Position numbers and translations under genes: made by a program
Source of the DNA: a virus
IMG/VR virus record: IMGVR_UViG_3300031963_000016
Span: 97,712-161,711 of that record
DNA: 64,000 nucleotides
Reading direction: 5' to 3' (one strand)
The notes under the pieces: model-generated
Seen by the model: the letters and a program-made list of their open reading frames with translations, nothing else
The model's database searches: none
Told to the model about the DNA's origin: nothing
Shown here: positions 10,288 to 59,775 of the stretch, one piece after another
Position numbering within the stretch: the first letter of the stretch is position 1
Layout of the letters: every line of letters starts with the position of its first letter

Positions 10288-10941
10288 ATGAAACTTATTA
10301 AAGAAGTCACAGAGTCAGTCAAGTTAGTAACAGAATCTAAACTTGGCAAAGGTAAAGAATATTTCATTGAAGGAATCTTTCTTCAATCTGCTATTCAAAA
10401 TCGTAACAAGCGTATGTATCCAGAAGAAGTTATGGATAAAGAGGTTGCTCGTTACATGAAAGAACAGGTTGAAAATAATCGTGCATATGGTGAATTGGGT
10501 CATCCAGATAATCCACAGATTAATCTTGATCGTGTATCACACCTTATCGTCTCTCTACGTAAAGAGGGAACTAATTATATTGGTAAAGCAAAAATTTTAG
10601 AAACACCAATGGGACAAATTGCAAAAGGTCTTTTAGACGGAGGTGCAAATCTCGGAGTTTCTAGTAGAGCACTTGGTTCACTCGTTACAAATAACGAAGG
10701 TGTATCGATTGTTCAAGACGATTTTATGCTGTCTACAGCAGCAGACATCGTTGCTGACCCATCTGCTCCAGACGCTTATGTGCGTGGTATTATGGAGAAT
10801 AAAGAGTGGGTTTTTGTTGATGGAAAGTTTGTGGAAAAACATATCGAGGAAGTCAAACACACAATTCGTAAAACTTCCTCACGAAATCTAGGGGAAGCAC
10901 AGATTCGCGCTTTCCAAGATTTTCTGAGTAAAATCAGATAA
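10288..10941 (+). CDS. gp21: Prohead maturation protease gp21
   Basis: 217 aa serine protease of the T4 gp21 / herpesvirus assemblin-like fold. It cleaves scaffold, core and capsid proteins at Leu/Ile-x-Glu sites. Catalytic candidates are His72 in YGELGHPDNP and the serine in LGVSSRALG (residue 125 or 126), with RNKRMYP near residue 40 typical of the family. The N-terminus (KLIKEVTESVKLVTES) has its own x-x-Glu sites, as expected for a self-processing enzyme. Confidence 0.93.
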   Translation: MKLIKEVTESVKLVTESKLGKGKEYFIEGIFLQSAIQNRNKRMYPEEVMDKEVARYMKEQVENNRAYGELGHPDNPQINLDRVSHLIVSLRKEGTNYIGKAKILETPMGQIAKGLLDGGANLGVSSRALGSLVTNNEGVSIVQDDFMLSTAADIVADPSAPDAYVRGIMENKEWVFVDGKFVEKHIEEVKHTIRKTSSRNLGEAQIRAFQDFLSKIR

Positions 10942-10985: not shown

Positions 10986-11969
10986 ATGTCAATCGAACAA
11001 AAAATCGCTGAAATCTTAGCAGAATCTAAAGCAGCTAAACTTGAAGATCAGGTTGCTGATACTGCTGAAGAGATCAAAGAAGAACAAGTTGAAGAGGAAG
11101 CTGTTAAACCTGCTGCTGAAACTCCAAATCCAGACAATGCTAAAAACAATGTTCAGGATGAAAAAGAAGCAGAAGGTGGCACTTCTAAGAAAGAAAACGC
11201 AGCTACTAAAGGTGCAGTTGCAGCAGAACCAAGTCATCTAAAAGGTGTCAAGGAAGATGTTGATGCACTTCTAAATGGCGAAGATCTTTCAGAAGAATTT
11301 AAACAAAAGGCAACTACTATTTTTGAAGCAGCTGTTATGACTCGTGTCAAAGCTGAAGTTGCTCGTTTGGAAGAAGAATTCGAAAGCAAACTTGCTGAGC
11401 AAGTTGCAAAGAATATAGAGGGACTTGTTGAGCAGGTTGATGGATACCTCGGCTACGTAGCCGAGCAGTGGATGACACAGAATGAAATTGCCCTTGAGCG
11501 TGGTATGAAGTCTGAAATTCTTGAGAGTTTCGTAGCTGGTATGAAAGATCTATTTGAAGAGCATTATATTGACGTTCCAGAAGAGCGTTATGATGTGCTT
11601 GGAGAAATGGAATCTAAAATCGAAGAATTAGAAGCAAAACTCAATGAGCAAGTTGCTAATAATATCGAGATGTCTAAAACAATCGCTGAGCAAAAGCGTT
11701 CAGAAATTGTTAAAACAGTTAGCGAAGGTTTGACTGATACAGAAACTGAAAAGTTTAATGCATTAGTTGAAGAGTTAACATACGAAGACGCAGAATCTTT
11801 TGAGACTAAAGTGAAGACTATCCGTGAAAATTATTTCACAAATAAATCAACCGCAGAAGTTAAATCTGTTGTTACTGACACTCCAGTTGAGCAATTAACT
11901 GAAGAGAAGAAAGAGCAAATCGATCCTCAGATGTCAGCATATTTAACAGCACTTAACAAACTTAAATAA
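10986..11969 (+). CDS. gp22: Prohead scaffold protein gp22
   Basis: 327 aa, very acidic and helical, with long Glu/Lys/Ala segments and predicted coiled coil. It is the major internal scaffold around which gp23 assembles and is later destroyed by gp21. It begins SIEQKIAEILAES and has several Leu-x-Glu or Ile-x-Glu sites (for example AEILAE, VARLEE, KIEELEAKLNE). It is placed directly between protease and capsid genes as in T4. Confidence 0.92.
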   Translation: MSIEQKIAEILAESKAAKLEDQVADTAEEIKEEQVEEEAVKPAAETPNPDNAKNNVQDEKEAEGGTSKKENAATKGAVAAEPSHLKGVKEDVDALLNGEDLSEEFKQKATTIFEAAVMTRVKAEVARLEEEFESKLAEQVAKNIEGLVEQVDGYLGYVAEQWMTQNEIALERGMKSEILESFVAGMKDLFEEHYIDVPEERYDVLGEMESKIEELEAKLNEQVANNIEMSKTIAEQKRSEIVKTVSEGLTDTETEKFNALVEELTYEDAESFETKVKTIRENYFTNKSTAEVKSVVTDTPVEQLTEEKKEQIDPQMSAYLTALNKLK

Positions 11970-11982
11970 AAGGAAAAAGAAA

Positions 11983-13281
11983 ATGACAACTCGTCAAGAT
12001 CTAGTTAAAAAATGGGCACCAATCCTCGAGCATGAGGGTGCTGCTCCAATCAAGGACACTTATCGTAAAGAAGTGACTGCAGTTCTCTTGGAAAACCAAG
12101 AGCGTGAAATGCAAAAACAGCGTGAAGCACTTTTCGAAGCTGCTCCAGCAAACGCTGTTGGTTCTTATGCTGACACTGGTGGTTTCGCTAAGTTCGATCC
12201 AGTTCTTATCAGCTTAGTCCGTCGTGCAATGCCACAACTCATTGCTTATGATGTTGCTGGTGTTCAGCCAATGACACAGCCAACTGGTTTAATCTTCGCA
12301 ATGAAGTCTCGTTACACTTCACAAGGTGGTACTGAGGCTCTCTTTAACGAAGCTGATACTGACTTCTCTGGTACTGGCACTCACAGTGGCGTTTATGACT
12401 TCGGTGGTTCTGAGACTACTGGTGCTGGTCTAGCAACTTCCGCAGCTGAGCGTCTTGGTCAAGGTGGTTCTGGTGATGGTTCTTTCAATCAGATGGCATT
12501 TAGCATCGAAAAGACTTCCGTTACTGCTAAGACTCGTGCTCTAAAAGCTGAGTACTCAATCGAATTAGCACAAGATATGAAATCTGTTCATGGTCTTGAT
12601 GCTGAAGGCGAACTAAGCAATATTCTCTCAACTGAGATTCTTGCTGAGATCAATCGTGAAGTTATCCGCACAATCTACAAGACTGCTAAGCCAGGTGCTG
12701 CAGTTGGTACTACTGCTGCTGGTACTTTCGACTTAGATACTGATTCTAATGGTCGTTGGTCTGTTGAGAAGTTTAAGGGTCTAATGTTCCAAATCGAGCG
12801 TGAAGCAAATGCGATTGGTCAGCAGACTCGTCGTGGTCGTGGTAACTTCATCATCACTTCTGCAGACGTTGCTTCTGCATTAGCGATGGCTGGCGTTCTT
12901 GACTACACTCCTGCTCTCCAGGGTAACAGCAGCTTGAACATTGATGACACAAGCACTACTTTTGCTGGTGTTCTAAATGGCAAGTACAAAGTTTATGTTG
13001 ATCCATATACTGCAAACGTATCTGCAACACAATTCTTCGTAGTTGGTTACAAAGGTAGTTCTGCATTTGATGCTGGCTTGTTCTACTGCCCATACGTTCC
13101 TCTACAAATGGTTCGTGCAGTTGATCCAAACAGCTTCCAGCCAAAGATTGGCTTCAAGACTCGTTACGGTCTAGTTGCTAACCCATTCGTCAATCTTGAC
13201 GATGGCACAGCTGGTCAGGACAACCTAACTGCTGATGTAAACTACTACTATCGTCGTGTTAAAGTTACTAACCTAATGTAA
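11983..13281 (+). CDS. gp23: Major capsid protein gp23
   Basis: 432 aa, HK97-fold capsid subunit. Family segments include AKFDPVLISLVRRAMPQLIA, GVQPMTQPTGLIFAMKSRY, TRALKAEYSIELAQDMKSVHG and GLMFQIEREANAIGQQTRRG. A gp21 cleavage site is visible as Leu-Phe-Glu/Ala at residues 50-53, comparable with the maturation site of T4 gp23 (E65/A66). Codons use C-ending forms (TTC, AAC, ATC) more than neighbouring genes do, as expected for a very highly expressed gene. A strong terminator follows. Confidence 0.97.
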   Translation: MTTRQDLVKKWAPILEHEGAAPIKDTYRKEVTAVLLENQEREMQKQREALFEAAPANAVGSYADTGGFAKFDPVLISLVRRAMPQLIAYDVAGVQPMTQPTGLIFAMKSRYTSQGGTEALFNEADTDFSGTGTHSGVYDFGGSETTGAGLATSAAERLGQGGSGDGSFNQMAFSIEKTSVTAKTRALKAEYSIELAQDMKSVHGLDAEGELSNILSTEILAEINREVIRTIYKTAKPGAAVGTTAAGTFDLDTDSNGRWSVEKFKGLMFQIEREANAIGQQTRRGRGNFIITSADVASALAMAGVLDYTPALQGNSSLNIDDTSTTFAGVLNGKYKVYVDPYTANVSATQFFVVGYKGSSAFDAGLFYCPYVPLQMVRAVDPNSFQPKIGFKTRYGLVANPFVNLDDGTAGQDNLTADVNYYYRRVKVTNLM

Positions 13282-48031: not shown

Positions 48032-48748
48032 ATGTCTTTCCTAGAAAATACTAACTTCGACTGGATGGAAATGCTTAACTTTTATGAGCGTCCATTTAGA
48101 GCTACATTTGTACCTTCAAAAGTTTGGCTAGACCTAGACAAATATGTAAATGACGAAGAAGGTCTTGCAAACTATTTTAAGAAATGGCGCACCAAGATTA
48201 AATGGGTAAAAGAAAAGTCTAAAGCCATAAAATATAATCGATACATAGCAATCGGTGGAGAGTATGACGCTGAGACAAGACAATGTATCATTATAATCTA
48301 TACAGATAAGTTTAGAACATATAAGTTCGACAAAGAAAACTGGGATCGTTTTAAGTTTAAACTAATTCAAGTTGAGATGCATGAATTAATACACTTCATG
48401 CAGTATGATAGAAGAGGAGACGAATCTTCCAGATATGTTCTCCCATATAAAAAAGTTAAACATACTAAGAAAGATGCTGAGCGTAGATATCTTTCTGAGT
48501 TTGACGAGATCCAAGCATATGCACACTGTGTTCTTTTAGATTTTAAAGATAAAAGACCAACTATTCCAACACAATCTCTTATCTCTCGTGCAAGAACATA
48601 TAGAGATTCAAAAACCCTCCACTATATCCTTCGAACCTTTAATTACGACTTTCGAAATAATCATGCAATTCCTAAGTTAATGCAGCAGATTATGAAGTGG
48701 GATCGTAAGTATCAAAGGTTTATCCGAGCATCCAGAAGACCTAAATAA
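48032..48748 (+). CDS. Zincin-like metalloprotease
   Basis: 238 aa. EMHELIHFMQYD contains HELIH (117-121), and LSEFDEIQAYAH about 35 residues later offers the third, glutamate ligand, as in gluzincins. The N-terminal 100 residues have many aromatic and basic residues. The C-terminus is very basic (RFIRASRRPK). No signal peptide is visible, so it acts inside the cell or in the head. No known phage counterpart is named; the substrate is unknown. Confidence 0.65.
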   Translation: MSFLENTNFDWMEMLNFYERPFRATFVPSKVWLDLDKYVNDEEGLANYFKKWRTKIKWVKEKSKAIKYNRYIAIGGEYDAETRQCIIIIYTDKFRTYKFDKENWDRFKFKLIQVEMHELIHFMQYDRRGDESSRYVLPYKKVKHTKKDAERRYLSEFDEIQAYAHCVLLDFKDKRPTIPTQSLISRARTYRDSKTLHYILRTFNYDFRNNHAIPKLMQQIMKWDRKYQRFIRASRRPK

Positions 48749-48773: not shown

Positions 48774-49685
48774 GTGACTGCAAATACCGTATTATCTGAC
48801 ATTAATGAAATCTATACTGGATTTGTCTTAGCTGGAGACAAATGGTTTGACCCATCTGCTAAGTTTCAGTATGAGCAGCGTGTTAAACAAGCCAAACCAG
48901 AAGAGGTCGCTGATGCTGAAGGTAAAGCAAGAGCAATGGCTACTGAGTTTATTAAGTGGGCAAAAGAAAATGGATATAAAGGATTTGTAAACAAAGTTTG
49001 GTGGACTGCTCGACCAAATTCTATGACCTCTGCAGTTGGAGAATTTGTTGATCAAAAGAAAAATCCTACTGATATATTGGTAAAATTTAATGATGGACCA
49101 GCAAGAGGATTTTTAGGATTATCTGCGAAAGCAACACAAGGTAAAGGTGACATTGGTTTTAAAAATCCAGGTATCGGAACTGTCGATAATTCTCTTGGAT
49201 TAACATTTGCGAATCAGTATAAATTATTACTTGAAGATACAATTGAGAAGTATAAACTGCCAAATTCAGCAGGTGAACGAAAGATCTTTATCAGAACAAA
49301 TCCTGATACAAAAAAAGAAACTGAAGAGATCGGTGTGAATATGATGGCAGATATGAGAGATAAATTATTACAAAGATTACTACAATTTAATCAACAAGAA
49401 TTATTTAAGTATCTTTTAAAAGATTGGATGGATGCAGAAGTTTTGTTTCCACCATATATTAAAGTAACAGGGCAAGGTAAAAAACCACCCTATGCGGCAA
49501 CAGTGATGGATCCAGTGAAGAACGACAAATTAGATGCGTTATCAAAATATCCAATCACTCTAGAAAAAATAGGCAACGAATCGATTGGCGTGAAAGCAGG
49601 AGAAAAAAAGATTATGAAGATTCGTTTTAAGTTTGAGTCAGAAAAGATGGCATCATCTTTAAAACTCTCTGGGGATCCATGGTAA
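48774..49685 (+). CDS. Nuclease-like protein with D...SAK motif
   Basis: 303 aa from GTG 48774 (an AGGTG site lies 7 bases upstream). The segment PTDILVKFNDGPARGFLGLS followed by AKATQGKGDIGFKNPG has an Asp strand, hairpin and Ser-Ala-Lys pattern that resembles a PD-(D/E)xK core with Ser in place of Asp/Glu. The next protein has a similar stretch. Fold inferred from pattern only; a structural head-linked protein is the alternative. The late-type motif CTAAATAAT at 48741 overlaps the upstream stop. Confidence 0.5.
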   Translation: MTANTVLSDINEIYTGFVLAGDKWFDPSAKFQYEQRVKQAKPEEVADAEGKARAMATEFIKWAKENGYKGFVNKVWWTARPNSMTSAVGEFVDQKKNPTDILVKFNDGPARGFLGLSAKATQGKGDIGFKNPGIGTVDNSLGLTFANQYKLLLEDTIEKYKLPNSAGERKIFIRTNPDTKKETEEIGVNMMADMRDKLLQRLLQFNQQELFKYLLKDWMDAEVLFPPYIKVTGQGKKPPYAATVMDPVKNDKLDALSKYPITLEKIGNESIGVKAGEKKIMKIRFKFESEKMASSLKLSGDPW

Positions 49686-49686
49686 A

Positions 49687-50904
49687 ATGTTAAAATTTAA
49701 ATCTTTTCTAATAGAAACTTTGCTTGTAGAAAAAGCATTAAGTAGTTCTGTATCTTCTGATGACAAAGGTAAACTACATGAGTTGCTTTTGTCAAAACAT
49801 CTTCATCCAAATAATACTTTACCTGAACATCATCGTTCAGAATCTGAAAACGAAGACCATGCTGGTACTCCCCAACAGGTTCACGATCGTCTAAAGAAAA
49901 AGATTGGAGATGCAGCATACAACGAGATTGATTCACATTCTAAATCTACTGCTGACGCATTAAAGAAACATTTAGTAGATTCAGGACATCTGAAACCTGG
50001 ACATACAATTGGTAATGTTCATTGGACTTCCAATGCTGATAAAGAAAACAAAGCAGGTGATCATGAGAAGACAACTGGCATTAAAGACGTCAACTCTAAT
50101 GCAGACTTGATTATAACTATGCACGATAAGGATGGTAAAGTTGTTGGGCATCATGGAGTTTCAGCTAAGTATGGTACAAACAAAGAGCCAAACTATCGCA
50201 ATCCAGGATTAGATTCTCTAGAGAAAACTGCAAATCTTCCATCTGGTTCTCTTAACGCTCATATGAAAACACATCATGCAGGTATGGAGAAACTAGGATA
50301 TAATGGATCTGCAGAAGACCGCCACGCACAATACAAAGCAGACTCTGCAGATATTGAAGATGTAAGAAAGGAGCATGGTCGTCTTTCTGGGATTCTTTCT
50401 GCAGGTAAAAAATTATCTGCCAAAGAGAAAACTACTCACAAACATTTTGAGATGTTTTTAAATGCGCATGATAAACATAAAAACCCAGATCAATTTTTAC
50501 AAGCAGCAAAATCAAGAGCAGCTGCTGCAGAAGAATCTGCACGTATCGGTAAACAAGCACTTGCTAAAAAATTTGCTGAAGGGTTATCAAAATATGATGA
50601 TGCTAAACTACGTAATGTAGTTAGAGATCATGTATCTGCTCCAACAAAAATTCCTCATACTGTCGCACACTCTCATGTACAAGATGATGGATCTTCTAAA
50701 CCAATTATTAAACCAGCAAGCGAAATTGCTGATAAACATTTAGAAGATTACGAGAATCTTCATGTTGTTCATAGTGGCGGTATTGCTGTTTATATTAAAG
50801 GTACACATAAGAAGACAGGTAAGGTTATGAATGTGGGTACAATGACTATGAAGGGTTCTTCTGGTCCACACAAGGGTGTTGTAGGTGCATTCAGCCTTAA
50901 ATAA
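49687..50904 (+). CDS. Predicted internal head protein with nuclease-like core
   Basis: 405 aa, one base after the previous stop. The N-terminus KFKSFLIETLLVEKAL resembles a T4 capsid-targeting sequence and holds LIE and LVE sites for gp21. Residues about 135-165 have SNADLIITMHDKDGKVVGHH then GVSAKYGTNKEPNYRNPG, related to the SAK motif of the preceding protein. The rest is His/Lys-rich and helical, with a C-terminal beta segment (HVVHSGGIAVYIKGTHKKTG). Possible nuclease packaged in the capsid; no experimental relative is known to me. Confidence 0.55.
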   Translation: MLKFKSFLIETLLVEKALSSSVSSDDKGKLHELLLSKHLHPNNTLPEHHRSESENEDHAGTPQQVHDRLKKKIGDAAYNEIDSHSKSTADALKKHLVDSGHLKPGHTIGNVHWTSNADKENKAGDHEKTTGIKDVNSNADLIITMHDKDGKVVGHHGVSAKYGTNKEPNYRNPGLDSLEKTANLPSGSLNAHMKTHHAGMEKLGYNGSAEDRHAQYKADSADIEDVRKEHGRLSGILSAGKKLSAKEKTTHKHFEMFLNAHDKHKNPDQFLQAAKSRAAAAEESARIGKQALAKKFAEGLSKYDDAKLRNVVRDHVSAPTKIPHTVAHSHVQDDGSSKPIIKPASEIADKHLEDYENLHVVHSGGIAVYIKGTHKKTGKVMNVGTMTMKGSSGPHKGVVGAFSLK

Positions 50905-50939
50905 TCCCCTCAACTCTGTAGGGTTATTATAGAGAGGTG

Positions 50940-50968
50940 TTGTCTTTAATTGCAACTTGCGGTATAAT
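50940..50968 (+). promoter_or_regulatory. Sigma70-type promoter, TTGTCT class, at the HAD gene
   Basis: -35 TTGTCT (50940-50945), 17-base spacer containing AATTGCAACTT, -10 TATAAT (50963-50968). TAGGGTTATT lies upstream at about 50919. Transcription would begin about 7 bases after the -10, at the ATG (50975), giving a leaderless message. Confidence 0.8.
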
Positions 50969-50974
50969 AGAGGT

Positions 50975-51595
50975 ATGAAAAGGTTTAGAGAATACATAGA
51001 AGAAGCGGTGGTAGAGCCGACTGGAAGTTTAACGATATTTGATATCGATGACACTCTATTCCATACCACTGCTCAAATCGCAGTTGTGAAAGATGGTAAG
51101 ACTATCGCCAAACTTACCAATCAAGAATTCAACAACTACAAATTAGGTGATGGGGAGTCGTTTGACTTCTCTGAGTTTAGAGATGCGCATAAGTTCTATC
51201 ACGAAAGTAAACCTATTGGTAGAATGCTAGCAAAAGCCAAAGCAATCTTGGCTAACTCTGTTAAGAATCCGTTAAGTAAAGTTATCATTATTACTGCTCG
51301 TGCAAACTTTGATGATAGAGATAAATTCCTATCAACATTTCGTAAGTATGGTTTCGACATTGACAAGGTTCGTGTTGAAAGAGCAGGTGAGTTAGTTGGT
51401 AATGAGATTCCAGCTATTAAGAAAGTAGTCATCGTTAGAAAATATCTACAAAGCAATCAATATGCTAAAGTAAGATTGTTTGATGACTCAATGAGCAATT
51501 TACGAGAGTTCTTAAAGTTAAGAACAGAGTTTAAGAATATTAAGTTCGAAGCATTCTTCGCAAATCCAGATGGTTCAGTAAAGGTTATTAAGTGA
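50975..51595 (+). CDS. HAD-family phosphatase with capsid-targeting-like N-terminus
   Basis: 206 aa. It starts KRFREYIEEAVVEPTG, like T4 internal-protein leaders, with an IEE/A site. HAD motif I is FDIDDTLF (about 22-29), motif II IIITARANFDDRD, a Lys in a conserved loop, and motif IV VRLFDDSMSN. The layout resembles polynucleotide 3'-phosphatases and nucleotidases. The gene after it is ligase-like, which suggests nucleic-acid end processing. Confidence 0.72.
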   Translation: MKRFREYIEEAVVEPTGSLTIFDIDDTLFHTTAQIAVVKDGKTIAKLTNQEFNNYKLGDGESFDFSEFRDAHKFYHESKPIGRMLAKAKAILANSVKNPLSKVIIITARANFDDRDKFLSTFRKYGFDIDKVRVERAGELVGNEIPAIKKVVIVRKYLQSNQYAKVRLFDDSMSNLREFLKLRTEFKNIKFEAFFANPDGSVKVIK

Positions 51596-52821
51596 AAACA
51601 TTAAAGAATTACATCGTTGAACAAAAGAACACTCACATGACTCATGTGGAAGATCTGGTATTTGATGGCGGTGTAGATGGAACCCGACAAGCGATTAAAT
51701 TTCTACAAGATCTTCGTGATATGCTCGCTGGTCACACTAAAAATAAAGTAACAGCTACTGTTAAATGGGATGGCGCACCAGCAGTATTTGCTGGTATTGA
51801 TCCACGTGACAAAAAATTCTTTGTTGCTAAAAAAGGAGTATTTAACAAAGATCCAAAAGTCTACAAGACAAATGCTGACATTGATGCAGACACGCAAGGT
51901 GATCTGGCTGCTAAATTGAAAGTTGCTTTAGCAGAGTTTAAGAAACTAGGAATCAAGTCAGGTGTTTATCAGGGTGATCTTATGTTCACTGACGATAAAC
52001 AGATCGTTACAATCGAAGGAAAGAAGTATATTACTTTTCACCCAAACACGATCGTGTATGCTGTTCCTGTTGGTACAGAGTTAGCCAATAAAATTATGAA
52101 AGCCAAGATTGGTGTTGTCTGGCATACAACTTATACAGGTTCATCATTTGAGTCAATGACAGCATCTTTTGGTAAATCAATCGTATCAAAAATGTCCTCT
52201 GTATCTTCTGTATGGATGGATGACGCAAACTATAAAGATTACTCTGGAATCGCAACATTTACTCAGGCAGAAACCGCAGAATTAACTGCGATCCTTTCTC
52301 AAGCAGGCAAAGTATTCAATGAGATTCCTGCACAAACTCTTAATGCTATTAGAGATAATGAAGATCTAAACATGGCTGTTAATACTTACAATAATTCAAA
52401 AGTTCGTGCTGGAGAACAAATAACTGATACTCATGCGCATGTGGTTGGATTGTTCAATTATATTCATGATAAGTATCAAAAAGAAATTGATACAAAGAAA
52501 ACTGAAAAGGGTAAACAAGCACAAGAAACAAAACGTAGTGCTGTTCTGTCTTTCTTTGCGAATCACGACAAAGCAGACATTGTTAAGATATTTGACTTAG
52601 TTAATTTACTTGCAAAAGCCAAATTAATGATTGTTAATAAGATGAATGAAGCAGGACATATTAATACATTTCTTAAAACTGCAAACGGATATAAAGTCAC
52701 TGGGGTGGAAGGTTTCGTTGCTATTGATCATTTAACTGGTGGTGCTGTTAAAATTGTAGATCGTTTAGAGTTTAGTAAATCAAATTTTTCACCAGATATT
52801 ATCAAAGGATGGCAACGATGA
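51592..52821 (+). CDS. Nucleotidyltransferase/ligase-like protein with capsid-targeting-like N-terminus
   Basis: 409 aa, GTG start overlapping the HAD stop (GTGA). The leader is KTLKNYIVEQ. Lys58 in TVKWDGAPAVFAGID fits ligase motif I (KxDG). FFVAKKGVFNKDPKVY, SGVYQGDLMFTDDKQ and IGVVWHTTYTG could be motifs III to IV of the RNA/DNA ligase superfamily. T4 internal Alt proteins also reach the host with the DNA, so an ejected ligase or nucleotidyltransferase is possible. It is a common but uncharacterised marine T4-like phage protein. Confidence 0.6.
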   Translation: MKTLKNYIVEQKNTHMTHVEDLVFDGGVDGTRQAIKFLQDLRDMLAGHTKNKVTATVKWDGAPAVFAGIDPRDKKFFVAKKGVFNKDPKVYKTNADIDADTQGDLAAKLKVALAEFKKLGIKSGVYQGDLMFTDDKQIVTIEGKKYITFHPNTIVYAVPVGTELANKIMKAKIGVVWHTTYTGSSFESMTASFGKSIVSKMSSVSSVWMDDANYKDYSGIATFTQAETAELTAILSQAGKVFNEIPAQTLNAIRDNEDLNMAVNTYNNSKVRAGEQITDTHAHVVGLFNYIHDKYQKEIDTKKTEKGKQAQETKRSAVLSFFANHDKADIVKIFDLVNLLAKAKLMIVNKMNEAGHINTFLKTANGYKVTGVEGFVAIDHLTGGAVKIVDRLEFSKSNFSPDIIKGWQR

Positions 52822-53186
52822 AAAGATTACTATTACTATCACCAGTATTTCTTTTAACTGGATGTACTTTACTATTATTGGCTGGATGTTCTTTTGTTTT
52901 ACCAAGACCTCATGATTCAGCGATGTTTAATAATCTTGTTGAGGTTAAAATAGCAGTAGATAAATTAGATTGTAAAAATAAAGAGTGGAGTGACACTTTT
53001 ATTAAAATTGAAAGATTAAAGGTTTACACTTCCTTAAGAAAGGATCCTCAGGCAAAGGCTGTAGAAGATCTAGAATCTGCTCTTAAGAAAGCACACTTAT
53101 CAAATAATGAGAAATTCTGTGAGTCAGTAGTTAAGATTAACAAGGCTAGAGTAGATGTTATAACAGACGCATGGAGAGGAAGATGA
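52818..53186 (+). CDS. Lipoprotein
   Basis: 122 aa from ATG 52818, with AAAGG nine bases upstream; an in-frame ATG at 52809 has no room for a ribosome site. The signal peptide KRLLLLSPVFLLTGC has a lipobox (LLTGC), and a second hydrophobic run ends LLAGC eight residues later, so either Cys could be lipidated. The mature part is a charged helix with two further Cys. It may alter the host envelope. Confidence 0.7.
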   Translation: MKRLLLLSPVFLLTGCTLLLLAGCSFVLPRPHDSAMFNNLVEVKIAVDKLDCKNKEWSDTFIKIERLKVYTSLRKDPQAKAVEDLESALKKAHLSNNEKFCESVVKINKARVDVITDAWRGR

Positions 53187-53419
53187 GTTTATTCAACGAA
53201 CTAAGACAGCAAGCAGACATGGGTGGTCCAGCAGGAGCACTTGCACGAGAACTAATTAATATTCATGATGAGTATTCTAGCGGTCATTTAAGTCGAGAAG
53301 AATATGATTTTCTTTTGTCAGAAATTGCAACAGTTAGAGCACAACAGGAACTCGCATCTGATGAGATCGCCTGTCGTTGGATTTGTGCTGCTGCTGAGGC
53401 TATGTTGAGTTTAGCATAA
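53183..53419 (+). CDS. Small conserved structural-region protein
   Basis: 78 aa from ATG 53183 overlapping the lipoprotein stop (ATGA). SLFNELRQQADMGGPAGALA, IHDEYSSGHLSREEYDFLLS and RAQQELASDEIACRWI form a helical protein found next to structural genes in marine T4-like phages. No function is known. Confidence 0.6.
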   Translation: MSLFNELRQQADMGGPAGALARELINIHDEYSSGHLSREEYDFLLSEIATVRAQQELASDEIACRWICAAAEAMLSLA

Positions 53420-53421
53420 GA

Positions 53422-53430
53422 CTAAATAAT
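53422..53430 (+). promoter_or_regulatory. Late-type promoter motif before the composite virion protein
   Basis: CTAAATAAT lies 30 bases upstream of the start at 53460, directly after the preceding stop. Confidence 0.45.
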
Positions 53431-53459
53431 AACAGTAACATATTTTATAGATGGATTAA

Positions 53460-56400
53460 ATGAAAGATTACCGACAACTAATCAAAGAACTGCCGTCTAA
53501 AACGGTAGTTATGGCTTTTGGGCGATTCAACCCTCCGACTATCGGACATGAATTGCTTGTAAAAGCAGTCAAGAAACTGGCTCAGCAAAAGAAGGCTGAC
53601 CACGTAATCTATGCATCTCGTTCTCAAGATGCAAAAAAGAATCCACTATCCGTCGATAAAAAAGTTAAATACTTGAACCTTATGTTCAAGAATACTCATT
53701 TCGTTGGTGCCAGCGATACTGTCCGCACCTTTATTGAGGCAGCGAAAGAGCTGAACAAAAGATATAAAAATCTAGTTATGGTCGCTGGTAGCGATCGTGT
53801 TCCAGAGTTTAATAGATTGTTAAATACATATAATGGTAAAGAGTTTAAATTTGACACAATTGAAGTTATTTCGGCAGGTGAACGTGATCCAGACGCTGAT
53901 GATGCTACAGGGATGTCTGCTTCTAAAATGAGAGCGATTGCTGTAAAAGGTAATTATGCAGAATTTAAAAGAGGATTACCATCTTCTGTTCGTGAAATAG
54001 ATGGTCGTCGTTTAATGAATGATATTCGTGATGGTATGGGACTCGATGCTGTTAAAGAACAGATTATCCTCGTTAAAGATGAATTACGTGAGAAATATTT
54101 TCGTGGAGAGATTTTTAACGAAGGTGATATTGTAGAATGTGGTGATGAAAAATATACAATAGTAAAACGTGGTTCAAATCATCTATTATTAAGAGAGGGA
54201 AGTGGTGCATTAGTTTCCAAATGGATTCATGATGTTCAACCGACGGAAGAGAAAGATATGAATGAATCTTTAACAGATAAAACTTTACGACCAACTGATA
54301 AAATTAAAGTTGCTCGCATTATTGCAACTATGTTGGGTGTAGAAAATGCAGAAACATCTTCAAACCCAGAAAACCTTATTAATCAGGCATTACGTAGAGT
54401 TAGAACAAAAGCACTTAATCCAGAGGCACTTAACATATTAGATAAAATGTTAAATCTTGCAACTGAGCAAGGCATTCAATATGATGCTACATTAAAACCA
54501 ACAAAGTTAAAAGAAGATAAAGTTAATAGAAATAGTAATTACAACATAGCAAAAGATGTTCTTCGCTTTAGTGACTTTAAAAGACTAAAGAAAATTCAAG
54601 AACATGAAGAATCAGATAATGACGATAAAAAAGATAATGAGTCTGACCACGATCATGAACATAATGATAATGAAATAGATCATTCAGAGGTTGGACATAC
54701 TTTAGTTGGTCCAGGTAAACAAGATAATCTACGTCGTCGTAAAATAGCATATCATCTGGGTGAACAACATAAGATTCCTCATATCGATATGTCTGCATAT
54801 GAAGATGAAGCAGGGCACGAGAATACTGCTCAACATATTATTACTAGTCCAGAACATACTGCTAAACAAAAGAAACTTGCTAAATCATTTATTGACAAAA
54901 TGAGTGGTTCTGTTGCAGAAGCAGTTTCTGCTCGTTTAAAACTTGCTGATGCATTGCGTCGTGAAGGAGAAAAACGTAAAGCATCTGAAGAACGTGCTAA
55001 ACTGATGATGCAACAAAGCAAAGAAAAACAAGCACTTGCTGACCAACATAAAAAAGAAAAAGAAAATTTAACTAAGGAAGAGACTGAAATTGAAGAGTCA
55101 ACTCCATATTACAACAAACCATCTTTCTTAAAGAGAATGTCACATGTTGCTAAACAAGAACGTCAAGCACGTGAGAAAAAAGAACAAGAACAAAAGAAAC
55201 AAGTTAAAGAAGAAATAATTGAAGAAGGATCTACTTCTGTTTATGATACTCATGTGAGAGGTAGTTCAGATTATCATGCAATAGTTAAAAAGCATGGTAC
55301 AGAAAAAACAAAAGAACTTATTCGTCATTTAAAAACGGAAAGAGATAGTCTTAGAAAGCACAGTTCAGATTGGGCTGGTCCAGCACACTTAAAGAAACAT
55401 GATTTTGCTATTAAAGGATTGACACGTGCTCTTGGAGAAGATTTAGTAAGAGAAGAAGAAGTAGAAATATGCGAAACAGCAGACGCTGGTCTTGCTGCAA
55501 AAGCAGCTAAGTCTGGTATTTCTATCGGAACATTACGCAAAGTTTATCGTCGTGGTGTAGCAGCATGGAACTCTGGACATCGTCCTGGAACAACACCACA
55601 ACAGTGGGGTATGGCTCGTGTAAATTCTTATATCACAAAAGGTAAAGGCACATATCATGGTGCTGACAAAGATCTTCGTGAGCAAGAAGAATTAGAAGAG
55701 AACAATTTACCAGAAGTGCCAAAGGATAAAGAGTCTGGTCTTCCAAAGAAATATGTGGCAGGTTTGTCTGCGTCTACTGCAAAGGCAAGAGCAGCACACT
55801 GGGACAGGATGGATAAAAAGAGCGACAGTGATCCATCTGCATATGCACCAGCACCTGGAGATGCAACTGCCGAAACTAAACCAAGCAAGCATACATTAAA
55901 GTATCGTGCAATGTTCGGTGAAGATATGGACGAAGAGTTATACGAGGCATGCTGGGATACTCACAAACAAGTTGGTATGAAAAAGAAAGGTGACCGCATG
56001 GTTCCTGACTGTGTGCCAAAGAATGAAGAGATTGAATTCAAAGACGATGTTTGCGATGTTTGTGGTAAGTCTCCATGTGAATGTGAAAATGAGGGACAAG
56101 ATCAAACACAAATGAAACCTAACTTCGATCCTTTCTTTAAAGAAGACGAAGATGAGATTGATTTTGCAGAACCATCTGATGATGAAATCGAAAAGATGGC
56201 AGACGAGTTAACAGACGATGATTATCTTGATGCATACGATGAAGATGAGTTGGGTGTTATTGATGATGAAACTGGTGAGGAATTAGAAGCAGATGAAGAA
56301 GAAGAAAAGAAACTTAAAGAGTCTGCTTTAATGGAAGTTCTTTCTCGTATAGAAAGAATGAAAGCAGTCGCAAGAATTCGTCGCACAAAGGCAAAACGTG

Positions 56401-56684
56401 AACGTGCAACTAAAATTGCATTAAAGCGTTATTCAAATACCGCTACAATTAACAAACGTGCACGTAGATTAGCAATTAAGTTAATGAAGAAGCGTCTAAC
56501 TCGTGGTCGTGATCCAAGCAAACTTTCTGTCGGAGAGAAAGAACGCATTGAACGTATCATTGAAAGAAGAAAAGCAGTGATTGGTCGTATCGCTATGCGT
56601 TTAGCACCACGTGTTCGTAAAGTAGAAAAAGCAAGACTATCACATTCTAAATACACTCAGGGATCTCCAAATGTTACATTTTAA
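53460..56684 (+). CDS. Large composite head-associated protein with N-terminal nucleotidyltransferase
   Basis: 1074 aa. The leader is KDYRQLIKELPSK. Residues 13-170 are an adenylyltransferase-like (NMNAT/CoaD) domain with GRFNPPTIGHELL (TIGH motif, 27-30), VAGSDRVPEFNRLL and GMSASKMRAIA. Then follow several separate modules joined by Glu-rich linkers: a KYTIVKRGSNHLLLREGSGA domain, an LRPTDKIKVARI helical domain, DUF5824-like segments (GTLRKVYRRGVAAWNSGHRP, LPKKYVAGLSASTAKARAAH), a CWDTHKQVGMKKKGDRMVP motif, a CDVCGKSPCECE cluster and a very basic C-terminus. Many Leu/Ile-x-Glu sites suggest gp21 processing. Confidence 0.75.
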   Translation: MKDYRQLIKELPSKTVVMAFGRFNPPTIGHELLVKAVKKLAQQKKADHVIYASRSQDAKKNPLSVDKKVKYLNLMFKNTHFVGASDTVRTFIEAAKELNKRYKNLVMVAGSDRVPEFNRLLNTYNGKEFKFDTIEVISAGERDPDADDATGMSASKMRAIAVKGNYAEFKRGLPSSVREIDGRRLMNDIRDGMGLDAVKEQIILVKDELREKYFRGEIFNEGDIVECGDEKYTIVKRGSNHLLLREGSGALVSKWIHDVQPTEEKDMNESLTDKTLRPTDKIKVARIIATMLGVENAETSSNPENLINQALRRVRTKALNPEALNILDKMLNLATEQGIQYDATLKPTKLKEDKVNRNSNYNIAKDVLRFSDFKRLKKIQEHEESDNDDKKDNESDHDHEHNDNEIDHSEVGHTLVGPGKQDNLRRRKIAYHLGEQHKIPHIDMSAYEDEAGHENTAQHIITSPEHTAKQKKLAKSFIDKMSGSVAEAVSARLKLADALRREGEKRKASEERAKLMMQQSKEKQALADQHKKEKENLTKEETEIEESTPYYNKPSFLKRMSHVAKQERQAREKKEQEQKKQVKEEIIEEGSTSVYDTHVRGSSDYHAIVKKHGTEKTKELIRHLKTERDSLRKHSSDWAGPAHLKKHDFAIKGLTRALGEDLVREEEVEICETADAGLAAKAAKSGISIGTLRKVYRRGVAAWNSGHRPGTTPQQWGMARVNSYITKGKGTYHGADKDLREQEELEENNLPEVPKDKESGLPKKYVAGLSASTAKARAAHWDRMDKKSDSDPSAYAPAPGDATAETKPSKHTLKYRAMFGEDMDEELYEACWDTHKQVGMKKKGDRMVPDCVPKNEEIEFKDDVCDVCGKSPCECENEGQDQTQMKPNFDPFFKEDEDEIDFAEPSDDEIEKMADELTDDDYLDAYDEDELGVIDDETGEELEADEEEEKKLKESALMEVLSRIERMKAVARIRRTKAKRERATKIALKRYSNTATINKRARRLAIKLMKKRLTRGRDPSKLSVGEKERIERIIERRKAVIGRIAMRLAPRVRKVEKARLSHSKYTQGSPNVTF

Positions 56685-56937
56685 AGAGTGGCTCACTGAA
56701 GCAGAATATCAGGGAAGAGATGTTCCTCTTAACAAACCTATGGCTGGTGATGTGAAAAAGTCTAAAGTCTTTGTTAAGAATGAAAAAGGTAATGTTGTCA
56801 AAGTAAACTTTGGTGACAAAAATATGACCATTAAGAAACATATTCCTGGTCGTCGTAAGTCATTCCGTGCTCGTCATAATTGCGATAATCCTGGTCCAAA
56901 AACAAAAGCAAGATATTGGTCTTGCAAGGCATGGTGA
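56671..56937 (+). CDS. Small basic virion protein (DUF5872-like) with capsid-targeting-like N-terminus
   Basis: 88 aa. LHFKEWLTEAEYQGRDVPLN holds an LTE/A site at residues 8-11. The rest is basic: KVFVKNEKGNVVKVNFGDKN, then HIPGRRKSFRARHNCDNPG and RYWSCKAW with conserved Cys, as in a family of small phage proteins (DUF5872 pattern). It overlaps the large composite gene by 14 bases. It is likely packaged in the head and DNA-associated. Confidence 0.72.
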   Translation: MLHFKEWLTEAEYQGRDVPLNKPMAGDVKKSKVFVKNEKGNVVKVNFGDKNMTIKKHIPGRRKSFRARHNCDNPGPKTKARYWSCKAW

Positions 56938-56942
56938 TATAA

Positions 56943-57419
56943 ATGGCTGGCAAACACATTATCTCTCATACAGAAACTGAAATAGTTTTTAAGTGTTATA
57001 TCACTGATTCAAATGGTGGAACGATTGATCTAAGTTTACAGAATGATATGACAAAATCTACTCAGGTATATGTCACACCAACATCTATTCCAGATGAGAC
57101 GAGTGGTGCTTTCGTTCAATACACTGGTTCAAGAGTTTATATCACTGAACTTTGGTGGGGATGCAAACACAATAAACATTGGGATGTTGCTAGATTACTA
57201 GATGCTACTCCTACTCTACACAATCATTACTATTTGGTTAATGCTGGCTATTATGATTACACTGGATTTGCTGATAGAATTTACGCTAATAAAGATCTTA
57301 GATTAACATCAGATGGTCCAGCACATTTAATTATTAAATTAAGAAAAGAAGGCTGGAATCCAAAAGTTGAGACCGCAGTATTTGGTCCATACGATAATGA
57401 ATCAGTTGTTGGAAGTTAA
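56943..57419 (+). CDS. Virion beta protein, paralogue of the 9824 gene
   Basis: 158 aa. It has polar beta strands (TEIVFKCYITDSNGGTIDLS), a Trp/His-rich middle (ITELWWGCKHNKHWDVARLL), and the C-terminal KVETAVFGPYDNESVVGS that matches the 9824 protein. It lies in the block of head-associated genes. A head or decoration role is inferred from position and paralogy. Confidence 0.58.
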   Translation: MAGKHIISHTETEIVFKCYITDSNGGTIDLSLQNDMTKSTQVYVTPTSIPDETSGAFVQYTGSRVYITELWWGCKHNKHWDVARLLDATPTLHNHYYLVNAGYYDYTGFADRIYANKDLRLTSDGPAHLIIKLRKEGWNPKVETAVFGPYDNESVVGS

Positions 57420-57428
57420 GGATAAACT

Positions 57429-57869
57429 ATGGAACATGTTGCTGCTTTACAAGTGAGTCTAGGAAATACTTTTGTTATGTATTTCAAAGCACACTCATAT
57501 CATTGGAATGTCGAGGGTTCTGACTTTGCTCAGTATCACGACTTCTTAGGTAAACTATATGAAGAATTGTATGGTGCAGTAGATCCTATGGCAGAAGAAC
57601 TTCGTGCTTTAGATGTATATGCACCACAAAGTTTAGACGCTATGGTTAGACTTTCTACAATTGAAGAGGATTCTGAAAGACCAACTAAACCAGCAGAAAT
57701 GTTTGGTAAGTTATTGGCTGCAAATAACGAGGTCATTGAATCCCTAAATAAATTATTCAAGGCAGCTGATGCTGCAAACGAACAGGGGCTAGCAGATTTT
57801 GCTGCTGGAAGAATAGATATTCACAAGAAACACGGATGGATGTTAAGATCCTTCATGAGAGGCGAATAA
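57429..57869 (+). CDS. Dps/ferritin-like protein
   Basis: 146 aa four-helix pattern. FKAHSYHWNVEGSDFAQYHD near residue 20 matches the Dps ferroxidase/first-helix signature (HWNV-G--F---H), followed by FLGKLYEELYGAVDPMAEEL. The last helix is RIDIHKKHGWMLRSFM. Dps proteins bind and shield DNA and oxidise iron. No capsid-targeting-like leader is visible, but its neighbours have one. Slightly shorter than bacterial Dps (about 160 aa). Confidence 0.72.
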   Translation: MEHVAALQVSLGNTFVMYFKAHSYHWNVEGSDFAQYHDFLGKLYEELYGAVDPMAEELRALDVYAPQSLDAMVRLSTIEEDSERPTKPAEMFGKLLAANNEVIESLNKLFKAADAANEQGLADFAAGRIDIHKKHGWMLRSFMRGE

Positions 57870-59230
57870 TGAAATCTTATAAAGAAATCGCAGAAGCATT
57901 AAAAGGTAAACAACACAAGATCGATAAGAACAAAAATGGTCAGATCGATGCTCACGACTTCAAACTTCTTCGTAAAGAAGAATCAGAACAAGTTGAACTA
58001 GATGAAATCTCTTCTCAGCTAGCTGGTCGTTACTACCAGAAAGCAGCACAAGACCAAATCAATAAGAAAGGTCTTAAGGGTGCTCTAAAAGATACAAAGA
58101 GTAAAAGAGCCGAAGGTATGAATCGTGCATTAGATCGTGTGCTTAAGAAAGAAGAAGTAAAAGAATCAGAAGAGCGTATGGCTCGTTCAGATTATAAAGT
58201 TTCTCCATCTGGTCGTAAATCTCATAAAGAAATCGTTTTTAGCACTGGTACTGAAAAGGAAGACGATGAAAAGGAAGGAATGAAAGAAGCAGCACCGCCA
58301 GGATTTGAAGGTACTGTTAAAGCAATGAAGAAGAAAAAAGAGATCGACAATCCTTACGCATTGGCATGGTCAATGTACAAGAAAGGATACAAAAGTCATA
58401 AGAATGCAGACGGCACAATGAAAGAAGAAGAAAAGAAACAAACTCCTCCACCATTTGATGGTCCATACAAAAAAGTTTCTGGAACAGTTACTGATAAATC
58501 TGGTGCAAAACATACACCAATGTCAAATGTTCGTCATCTTGCTCGCATGGCAATGAAGAAACAGATGAAGGAAGAAGCAGAACAGATTGATGAGACAATT
58601 AAAACTACTCATGAAGATCCTTTAGTTACAGTTCATGATAAAGATGGTCTTCATACTCATGCAAATCTATCAGTAGCTAATAACATCTTTGGAACCAAAG
58701 TGAAACATACTGAAGTGCATGCTGGCGCAGTTAATACAAAAAATCGTGAAGGTAAACCTCTGAAGTTTGCTATCTCTAAGCATCACGCACAAGCAGTGAA
58801 AGACGAAGAAAAATTTAAAAAACAATTTGGTGAACAGGCACCAGTTGCTCCAGTTCCAGGAGACAAATGGAAGTCTCATGCAGTTATGGTTAATGGCAAA
58901 CAGCGTGTTGTTGTTGATCGCAAAAACGTAAAAAATTATCCAGAACATGAAGGATGGAAAGAAGTCTCTCCAGGTATGAAATTAAAAGAGGATGAAGATG
59001 TTAAATTTTCATACGCAGAAATAATGCTGATGCTCGAAGTAGAATTTGATAAGAGTGGTCGTTATGTTCACAGGGGAACATATGGTTCTGAATTTGCAAA
59101 AAGAGAACGTGAAAAAGATGAAAAGGGTTTTGACGCAGATGATAAACCTTTAACAGTTTCAACACAAAAACGAGGTCGTGGTAGACCAGCAGGATCTAAG
59201 TCTGGTGCTCGTGGACCTAGAATCAAGTAA
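57869..59230 (+). CDS. Head-associated protein with EF-hand loop and AT-hook-like tail
   Basis: 453 aa from ATG 57869 overlapping the Dps-like stop (TAATG). The leader is KSYKEIAEALKGK with an IAE/A site. Residues about 20-31 (DKNKNGQIDAHDF) form a canonical EF-hand calcium loop. APPGFEGTVKAMKKKKEIDN and the following SMYKKGYKSHK are a motif found in many phage head proteins. The C-terminus has KRGRGRPAGSKSGARGP, an AT-hook-like minor-groove binder. Linkers are Glu/Lys-rich. Probably DNA-associated inside the capsid. Confidence 0.7.
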   Translation: MKSYKEIAEALKGKQHKIDKNKNGQIDAHDFKLLRKEESEQVELDEISSQLAGRYYQKAAQDQINKKGLKGALKDTKSKRAEGMNRALDRVLKKEEVKESEERMARSDYKVSPSGRKSHKEIVFSTGTEKEDDEKEGMKEAAPPGFEGTVKAMKKKKEIDNPYALAWSMYKKGYKSHKNADGTMKEEEKKQTPPPFDGPYKKVSGTVTDKSGAKHTPMSNVRHLARMAMKKQMKEEAEQIDETIKTTHEDPLVTVHDKDGLHTHANLSVANNIFGTKVKHTEVHAGAVNTKNREGKPLKFAISKHHAQAVKDEEKFKKQFGEQAPVAPVPGDKWKSHAVMVNGKQRVVVDRKNVKNYPEHEGWKEVSPGMKLKEDEDVKFSYAEIMLMLEVEFDKSGRYVHRGTYGSEFAKREREKDEKGFDADDKPLTVSTQKRGRGRPAGSKSGARGPRIK

Positions 59231-59247: not shown

Positions 59248-59775
59248 ATGGCACTATGGACAAATGTTGATGAAGAAGCAGGTAAACCAAAATACCTATC
59301 TTCAGGTGATCTAGCAAACACAGTTGGTATTAATGCTGAAGAAGCGACTGCTAACGGACTTACTGCTGGTTGGAATTTAAAATCAACTGGCTCTGGTGGT
59401 CGCAGCGGTCGTGTATTCCACGAAGTATTAGTTGCGATGGGTTCAATGACTGGTGACAATGATACTATTGCACCAGAAATCACTATCACTGTACAACCAG
59501 CTAATCAATCTGTTACTGCACCAGCAACTGCTACATTTAGCGTAACTGCTACTCGTACTGGTACTGGTTCATTAACTTATCAGTGGCAGATTCAGCAAGA
59601 AGGTGCTGGTGCATGGGTTGACATCTCTGGCGCAACTTCTGCATCATACACTACTGGCGCAACAGCGACTGGTGATGGCGCAGGTGCAACAGATGGTGAC
59701 AAGTATCGTGTTCTAGTATCTCTAGCTGGCGCTGACACTAAGACTTCTAACGCAGCAACTCTAACAGTAGCGTAA
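59248..59775 (+). CDS. Ig-like decoration protein (Hoc-like)
   Basis: 175 aa with an AAAGGAG site. The N-terminal part (ALWTNVDEEAGKPKYLSSGD to about 80) is a capsid- or virion-associated domain. Residues about 85-175 form an immunoglobulin-like domain (VQPANQSVTAPATATFSVTA, LTYQWQIQQ, GDKYRVLVSLAGADTKTSNA). Ig domains on phage heads, such as T4 Hoc, bind surfaces weakly. Codons are C-ending more often than in neighbours, as in gp23, suggesting high expression. Confidence 0.75.
   Translation: MALWTNVDEEAGKPKYLSSGDLANTVGINAEEATANGLTAGWNLKSTGSGGRSGRVFHEVLVAMGSMTGDNDTIAPEITITVQPANQSVTAPATATFSVTATRTGTGSLTYQWQIQQEGAGAWVDISGATSASYTTGATATGDGAGATDGDKYRVLVSLAGADTKTSNAATLTVA

Follow-up and report, generated by a model that had tools for sequence, protein, structure and literature searches.

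In bacteriophage T4, the internal proteins IPI, IPII and IPIII, as well as Alt, carry an N-terminal capsid-targeting sequence (CTS), which gp21 cuts. In IPIII it serves targeting mainly through residues 4 and 7 and processing through residues 8 and 10 (PMC9026906). Injected head proteins that are trimmed after x-x-E by a gp21-related protease are also known from phiKZ and SPN3US, and multi-domain effectors packaged or transferred with DNA have been described as the polyvalent proteins of phages and conjugative elements, including DarA and DdrB of P1 (PMC5512222). Virion cargo of T4-like phages beyond the coliphages is little known. Here we analyze a block of 14 genes at positions 49687 to 59230 of a 64,000-nucleotide stretch of viral DNA (the window), which covers positions 97,712 to 161,711 of IMG/VR record IMGVR_UViG_3300031963_000016 and forms the final 64 kb of a viral contig of 161.7 kb from a T4-like phage. 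The block probably encodes CTS-tagged internal head cargo, in part as polyproteins that the prohead protease gp21 would dice inside the head.

The block shares with the T4 internal proteins and Alt the ten-residue register of the leader, the conserved positions 4, 7, 8 and 10, the LxE site and the presence of gp21 and gp22. It differs from them in its predicted cargo, which would consist of enzymes and of proteins with several domains whose internal joints bear predicted sites. In SPN3US the motif is A-x-E and propeptides are removed, and the accessible portions of the work on phiKZ and SPN3US do not report a diced multi-enzyme polyprotein. For polyvalent proteins, processing has been proposed in one case through an embedded metallopeptidase domain (PMC5512222), whereas here gp21 and a CTS-type leader are the predicted agents. 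Two of the block proteins, 53460 and 57869 (proteins are named by their start in the window), share with polyvalent proteins the presence of several domains in one polypeptide; general Pfam and PHROG scans of the six leader-bearing proteins listed no peptidase domain, the polyvalent signature domains not having been searched singly.

Leaders of the T4 type

Six proteins of the block begin with the following leaders (arrows mark predicted cuts), and all six starts open real reading frames at these coordinates:

49687-49731, plus strand: leader MLKFKSFLIE and spacer TLLVE, predicted to act in targeting and to hold two sites, one at residue 10 (LIE↓T) and one at residue 15 (LVE↓K)
50975-51004, plus strand: leader MKRFREYIEE, site IEE↓A
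51592-51621, plus strand: leader VKTLKNYIVE (GTG start), site IVE↓Q
53460-53489, plus strand: leader MKDYRQLIKE, site IKE↓L
56671-56700, plus strand: leader MLHFKEWLTE, site LTE↓A
57869-57895, plus strand: leader MKSYKEIAE (nine residues; MKSYKEIAEA with the next one), site IAE↓A

Five of the six stand in the exact register of T4 IPIII (MKTYQEFIAE), with hydrophobic or aromatic residues at 4 and 7, I/L at 8 and E at 10, so that [LI]-x-E ends at residue 10; in 57869 it ends at residue 9. A preliminary description of this DNA had proposed a leader common to all six proteins and similar to the T4 CTS. The similarity holds, the residues at positions 4, 7, 8 and 10 agreeing with those of IPIII, and the sharing holds in strict form for five proteins, 57869 having an off-register, nine-residue variant.

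The register pattern, searched as M..[FYWLIMH]..[FYWLI][ILV].E, occurs at six gene starts in the contig, five of them in the block, while a match at contig position 53991 (41 amino acids) falls outside it. Only 0.22 matches per genome are expected from internal positions. Shuffling of N-termini with alternative starts allowed gave a mean of 0.98 matches and reached six in 1 of 2000 trials, and at this conservative rate five matches among the 14 genes of the block have a binomial P of about 3e-9. The other eight genes lack a leader. A further strict match, MKLFKEYIKE at contig base 2130, was rejected as a start because it is internal to a longer open reading frame.

The best-matching records of the contig are Phage C48C1, Methylophilales phage Melnitz and Pelagibacter phage HTVC008M, all filed under Kyanoviridae, and a DNA-level search of the phage collection found no near-identical or close record. 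In T4, used as a positive control, the pattern retrieves IPII, IPIII, gp24 and gp61.1; in C48C1 the matches are four products of the corresponding block, another lying a few kb upstream and an unrelated short open reading frame; the genome of cyanophage S-SM1 has four matches. The single match in HTVC008M is unrelated, and the strict form of the leader is therefore not universal among relatives.

Conservation within families follows the same positions. Among 147 relatives of 51592 (family DUF6267) with a readable start, 117 have leaders of exactly ten residues, 66 of them distinct; in these 66, E10 is invariant, position 8 is I/L (M in one), position 7 is Y/F/H in 63 and position 4 is L/F in 65, with positions 3, 6 and 9 varying. 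Where the length differs (9 to 15 residues), most DUF6267 leaders still close with [LI]xE or extend one to two residues past it. In the 49687 family, L13 and E15 are invariant in 32 relatives and the spacer varies in length, and most relatives of 50975 keep the leader, with changes. The AlphaFold2 models, that of 49687 having a pLDDT of 88, show residues 1-14 of 49687 and 1-15 of 51592 as disordered or of low confidence. Pfam and PHROG scans of the six proteins gave no match to the IPI, IPII, IPIII or Alt families; by these comparisons it is the leader, not the body, that the T4 internal proteins and the block proteins have in common.

The contig carries T4-type neck, sheath, portal, S77 prohead protease, scaffold and major capsid genes, the last three being the following:

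10288-10941, plus strand: gp21 prohead protease (peptidase S77; PF03420, E 5.5e-39), the predicted cutter
10986-11969, plus strand: gp22 scaffold (PF25623, E 7e-73), the predicted docking partner
11983-13281, plus strand: gp23 major capsid protein (PF07068, E 7e-142)

In an alignment, LFE↓AA of this gp23 coincides with the known T4 gp23 cleavage site LTE↓A, LxE being kept. A link to virions comes from S-SM1, in whose particles the cyanophage-core putative citidylyltransferase T4-GC190 was detected by mass spectrometry (Sullivan et al. 2010, PMC3037559). The gene labelled T4-GC190 in the S-SM1 record, SSM1_190, is one of the four pattern matches of that genome and encodes a leader-type start, MKKFSAFLNE↓AERS, of which we found no earlier mention in the literature searched. 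Its product matches phrog_395, as does the N-terminus of 53460, and is orthologous to that N-terminal domain; its 387 amino acids do not include the DUF5824, CW and basic modules of 53460. Presence in virions is documented in the literature for this ortholog, and for the phage studied here we infer packaging and cleavage from the sequence. The available part of the paper on Melnitz does not name internal head proteins. The match of the leaders, the presence of gp21, the LxE kept in gp23 and the leader-bearing ortholog in the virions of another phage together support the earlier proposal that the block proteins are loaded into the head.

The T4 protein gp61.1 (gene 61.1, NC_000866 18966-19130, 54 amino acids, annotated as hypothetical) starts with MKTFKEFIKED, which nearly repeats the targeting sequence of IPIII, and may be an internal protein of T4 that has gone unnoticed. 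Its gene adjoins gene 61 (primase), and the block likewise lies just before a primase gene.

Sites at the joints between domains

The (L/I/V)-x-E site recurs inside the long proteins, at joints of small domains, which makes these proteins look like polyproteins from which gp21 would free separate pieces:

55089-55097, plus strand: predicted internal site IEE↓STPYY before a small module (only four contexts, some nonconforming)
55467-55475, plus strand: predicted internal site ICE↓TADA before the DUF5824 module
55476-55690, plus strand: DUF5824 module (PF19141, E 3e-16)
55938-55946, plus strand: predicted internal site LYE↓ACWD before the CW module
56328-56336, plus strand: predicted internal site LME↓VLSR before the basic module
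56337-56684, plus strand: basic module at the C-terminus of 53460 (net charge about +30), preceded by an acidic linker (-33)
56701-56937, plus strand: Hva1-like (TUDOR-type) basic domain of 56671, predicted mature start AEYQG (phrog_7595, E 3e-12)
57896-59230, plus strand: multi-module part of 57869, an EF-hand-like segment followed by modules for which the sites LDE↓I (58006) and IDE↓T (58594) are predicted

The modules swap between self-standing, leader-bearing proteins and slots in polyproteins. In C48C1, DUF5824 is a separate protein with its own leader, and the basic module forms a small basic protein by itself, likewise leader-bearing, both there (MLSFKQFVSE↓VLD) and in Melnitz. The cleanest set of aligned joints is that of Hva1, a name also borne by a GenBank relative of 56671 (HVA1 family protein). 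Seeded with the 56671 domain and drawn from viral contigs, genome contigs and other phages, it contains 114 distinct upstream contexts, which extend from short leaders at one end to fusions with hundreds of unrelated residues ahead of the domain at the other. Of these contexts, 104 have E at P1 and 107 have A at P1', P3 is L/I/V/M in 80%, and P2 is near background entropy; [LIVM]xE is found at 88 of the 114 joints, against a mean of 4% at other registers. The phage Hva1 module also sits on contigs from the bins of Lokiarchaeota, Flavobacterium and Halobacteroidaceae metagenome-assembled genomes; these contigs may be phage DNA that was misbinned.

The test covered modules with enough relatives, a number that some modules of 57869 did not reach. 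For the basic module, 44 of 48 distinct upstream contexts conform; another upstream register is also high (67%), so the linker itself is conserved and the 48 contexts are not independent. DUF5824 conforms in 26 of 36, several of the remaining joints being off by one residue, with ICE↓T common to most contexts. The E↓ALKG joint of the EF-hand-like module stands behind leaders and fusions alike and is shared by the relatives of 57869. The linker ahead of the module that starts GLPKKYVAGL is conserved but is not of the LxE type, and this module was for that reason not counted as joint evidence.

The alternative that survives best accepts the leaders as packaging signals that are clipped as in T4, and holds that the internal joints stay uncut and the long proteins are packaged whole. 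For injected T4 proteins the documented cleavages are in fact only of the leader type at the N-terminus, plus one C-terminal cut in Alt (PMC9026906, PMC5694885), and the number of sites in the long protein is near what chance would give. We nevertheless find this alternative unlikely, since P1 and P3 are conserved across unrelated upstream sequences, with the same joint behind leaders and fusions, and since the predicted mature start of Hva1 is the natural start in phages without gp21. The free-standing Hva1 proteins of CRP-901, HTVC202P, HTVC111P and Kolga start with MATYKG, MAKYKG, MAKYKG and MAKYQG, respectively, their initiator Met occupying the position of the P1 Glu of T4-like relatives; that of CRP-2 has a different N-terminus from which the site is absent. 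No S77 protease was detectable in any of these five phages, against 11 of the 12 other records of the same search, the exception being a 114-kb contig that is possibly incomplete. Flavobacterium phage immuto, which has gp21, reads LDE↓GEYRG.

Predicted cargo enzymes and proposed mechanism

The larger bodies behind the leaders resemble enzymes of nucleic-acid and nucleotide chemistry:

49732-50904, plus strand: body of 49687, PD-(D/E)XK, restriction-endonuclease-like, D140 ... S159-x-K161 (predicted at fold level)
51005-51595, plus strand: HAD-family phosphatase (FDIDDTL), related to the polynucleotide-kinase phosphatase family (phrog_415, E 3.7e-5)
51622-52821, plus strand: DUF6267 body with ligase-like motifs K58-W-D-G, E373-G-F-V and K387-x-V-D-R (PF19782, E 2e-104)
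53490-54330, plus strand: HIGH-superfamily nucleotidyltransferase, cytidylyltransferase/NMN adenylyltransferase-like (phrog_3041, E 1e-86; PF01467, E 3e-6)

The HIGH-type nucleotidyltransferase of 53460, whose match to TIGR00482 is weak, and the HAD phosphatase of 50975 are supported by sequence matches at the family level. For 49687, Foldseek placed MspI and HinP1I first (probability 0.93-0.98, E 0.009-0.03, a likeness of fold only), and D140 and S159-x-K161 are invariant among relatives, findings that suggest a restriction-nuclease-like enzyme; the protein at 48774 gave a weak local match only (E 0.007) and was rejected as a relative. For DUF6267, motifs suggest a ligase-like enzyme. K58-D60-G61, E373-G374 and K387 are invariant, corresponding to the KxDG, EGxV and K motifs of covalent nucleotidyltransferases, and the five top Foldseek matches are DNA or RNA ligases, but with E of at least 0.09 and low TM. 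Sequence searches of the PDB with 51592, 53460, 50975 and 49687 returned nothing significant. Together, the cargo could form an injected kit for nucleic-acid processing, perhaps attacking host DNA or repairing damage from host defences.

In the mechanism we propose, the leader of nine to ten residues (M-x-x-hydrophobic/aromatic-K-x-aromatic-I/L-x-E) would dock each protein on the scaffold core, as the T4 CTS does, and gp21 would then cut behind the leader Glu. The same protease would also cut the (L/I/V)-x-E joints. Individual enzymes and basic, DNA-binding fragments would thereby arise within the head and leave through the tail together with the DNA. On balance, and with less assurance than for the block itself, we favour a wider proposal: that the T4-like phages of this group package polyproteins from which the prohead protease, inside the capsid, releases separate enzymes for injection (a nuclease, a phosphatase, a nucleotidyltransferase and a ligase-like enzyme) together with basic fragments that bind DNA, and that domains pass freely between tagged proteins of their own and slots in polyproteins provided that they retain the LxE joint. 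We found no description of the processing of phage cargo polyproteins by a head protease in the literature searched. Should cleavage take place at the joints, this protease would act as a processor of polyproteins. The apparent loading of tagged cargo also predicts that many 'hypothetical' proteins of marine T4-like phages travel in the virion and are delivered with the DNA. The logos of leader and joint would offer a means to spot such cargo among hypothetical proteins and to predict its mature fragments from sequence only.

Several observations weigh against this interpretation. In the 1074-amino-acid long protein the total of [LI]xE is 19 against 13.7 expected (P 0.08), not clearly above chance, so the argument for the joints rests only on where the sites are placed. 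After some leaders P1' is Q, L or E in place of the A usual in T4. The DUF6267 ortholog of S-SM1 has no clear leader, and in a few divergent relatives of the HAD protein the leader is absent or replaced. Finally, the late motif ATAAATA does not occur inside the block, where a sigma70-like promoter sits:

50941-50971, plus strand: sigma70-like promoter TTGTCTT-N-TATAATA just 5' of the HAD gene, one of eight such sites on that contig strand

These signals, together with the location of the block, which has a DnaB-like helicase gene (41876) on one side and a DNA primase gene (61849) on the other, would suit ordinary early enzymes of nucleic-acid metabolism that stay in the cell and use the shared N-terminus as a docking helix for the replication machinery. 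We consider this improbable, given the T4 packaging register, the conservation of P3 and P1 while P2 is free, the correlation with gp21 and the detection of a leader-bearing ortholog in virions; moreover, the blocks of relatives have late-type TATAAATA motifs in their vicinity, which in Melnitz lie about 45 bases 5' of the first leader-bearing gene. Least probable of all, and hardly credible, is a Glu-Ala joint that belongs to the fold of each domain and has no connection with a protease, for, easily as chance [LI]xE arises in Glu-rich linkers, it would have to accommodate the near-constant P1 Glu of the Hva1 contexts and the rarity of [LIVM]xE at other registers, the free P2, the close homologs without the joint in gp21-less phages and the appearance of the joint in four unrelated modules.

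Neighbouring genes and signals

The sigma70-like family TTGTCTT...TATAATA also occurs at contig sites 25493, 51694, 131095 and 137993. The ATAAATA motif is distinct from it, is strongly strand-biased (24 on the plus strand vs 5) and precedes several structural genes. PADLOC gave no match. Immediately 5' of the cargo genes, the product of 48032-48748 contains HELIH, an HExxH motif, and is possibly a zinc peptidase. Within the block, 52809-53186 encodes a small predicted lipoprotein (LLAGCS lipobox), perhaps a lysis protein, and 57429-57869 a ferritin/Dps-like protein, one of the eight products without a leader and with no LxE site nearby. Adjoining the block, 59248-59775 encodes an Ig-like protein that matches Hoc-like head decoration families.

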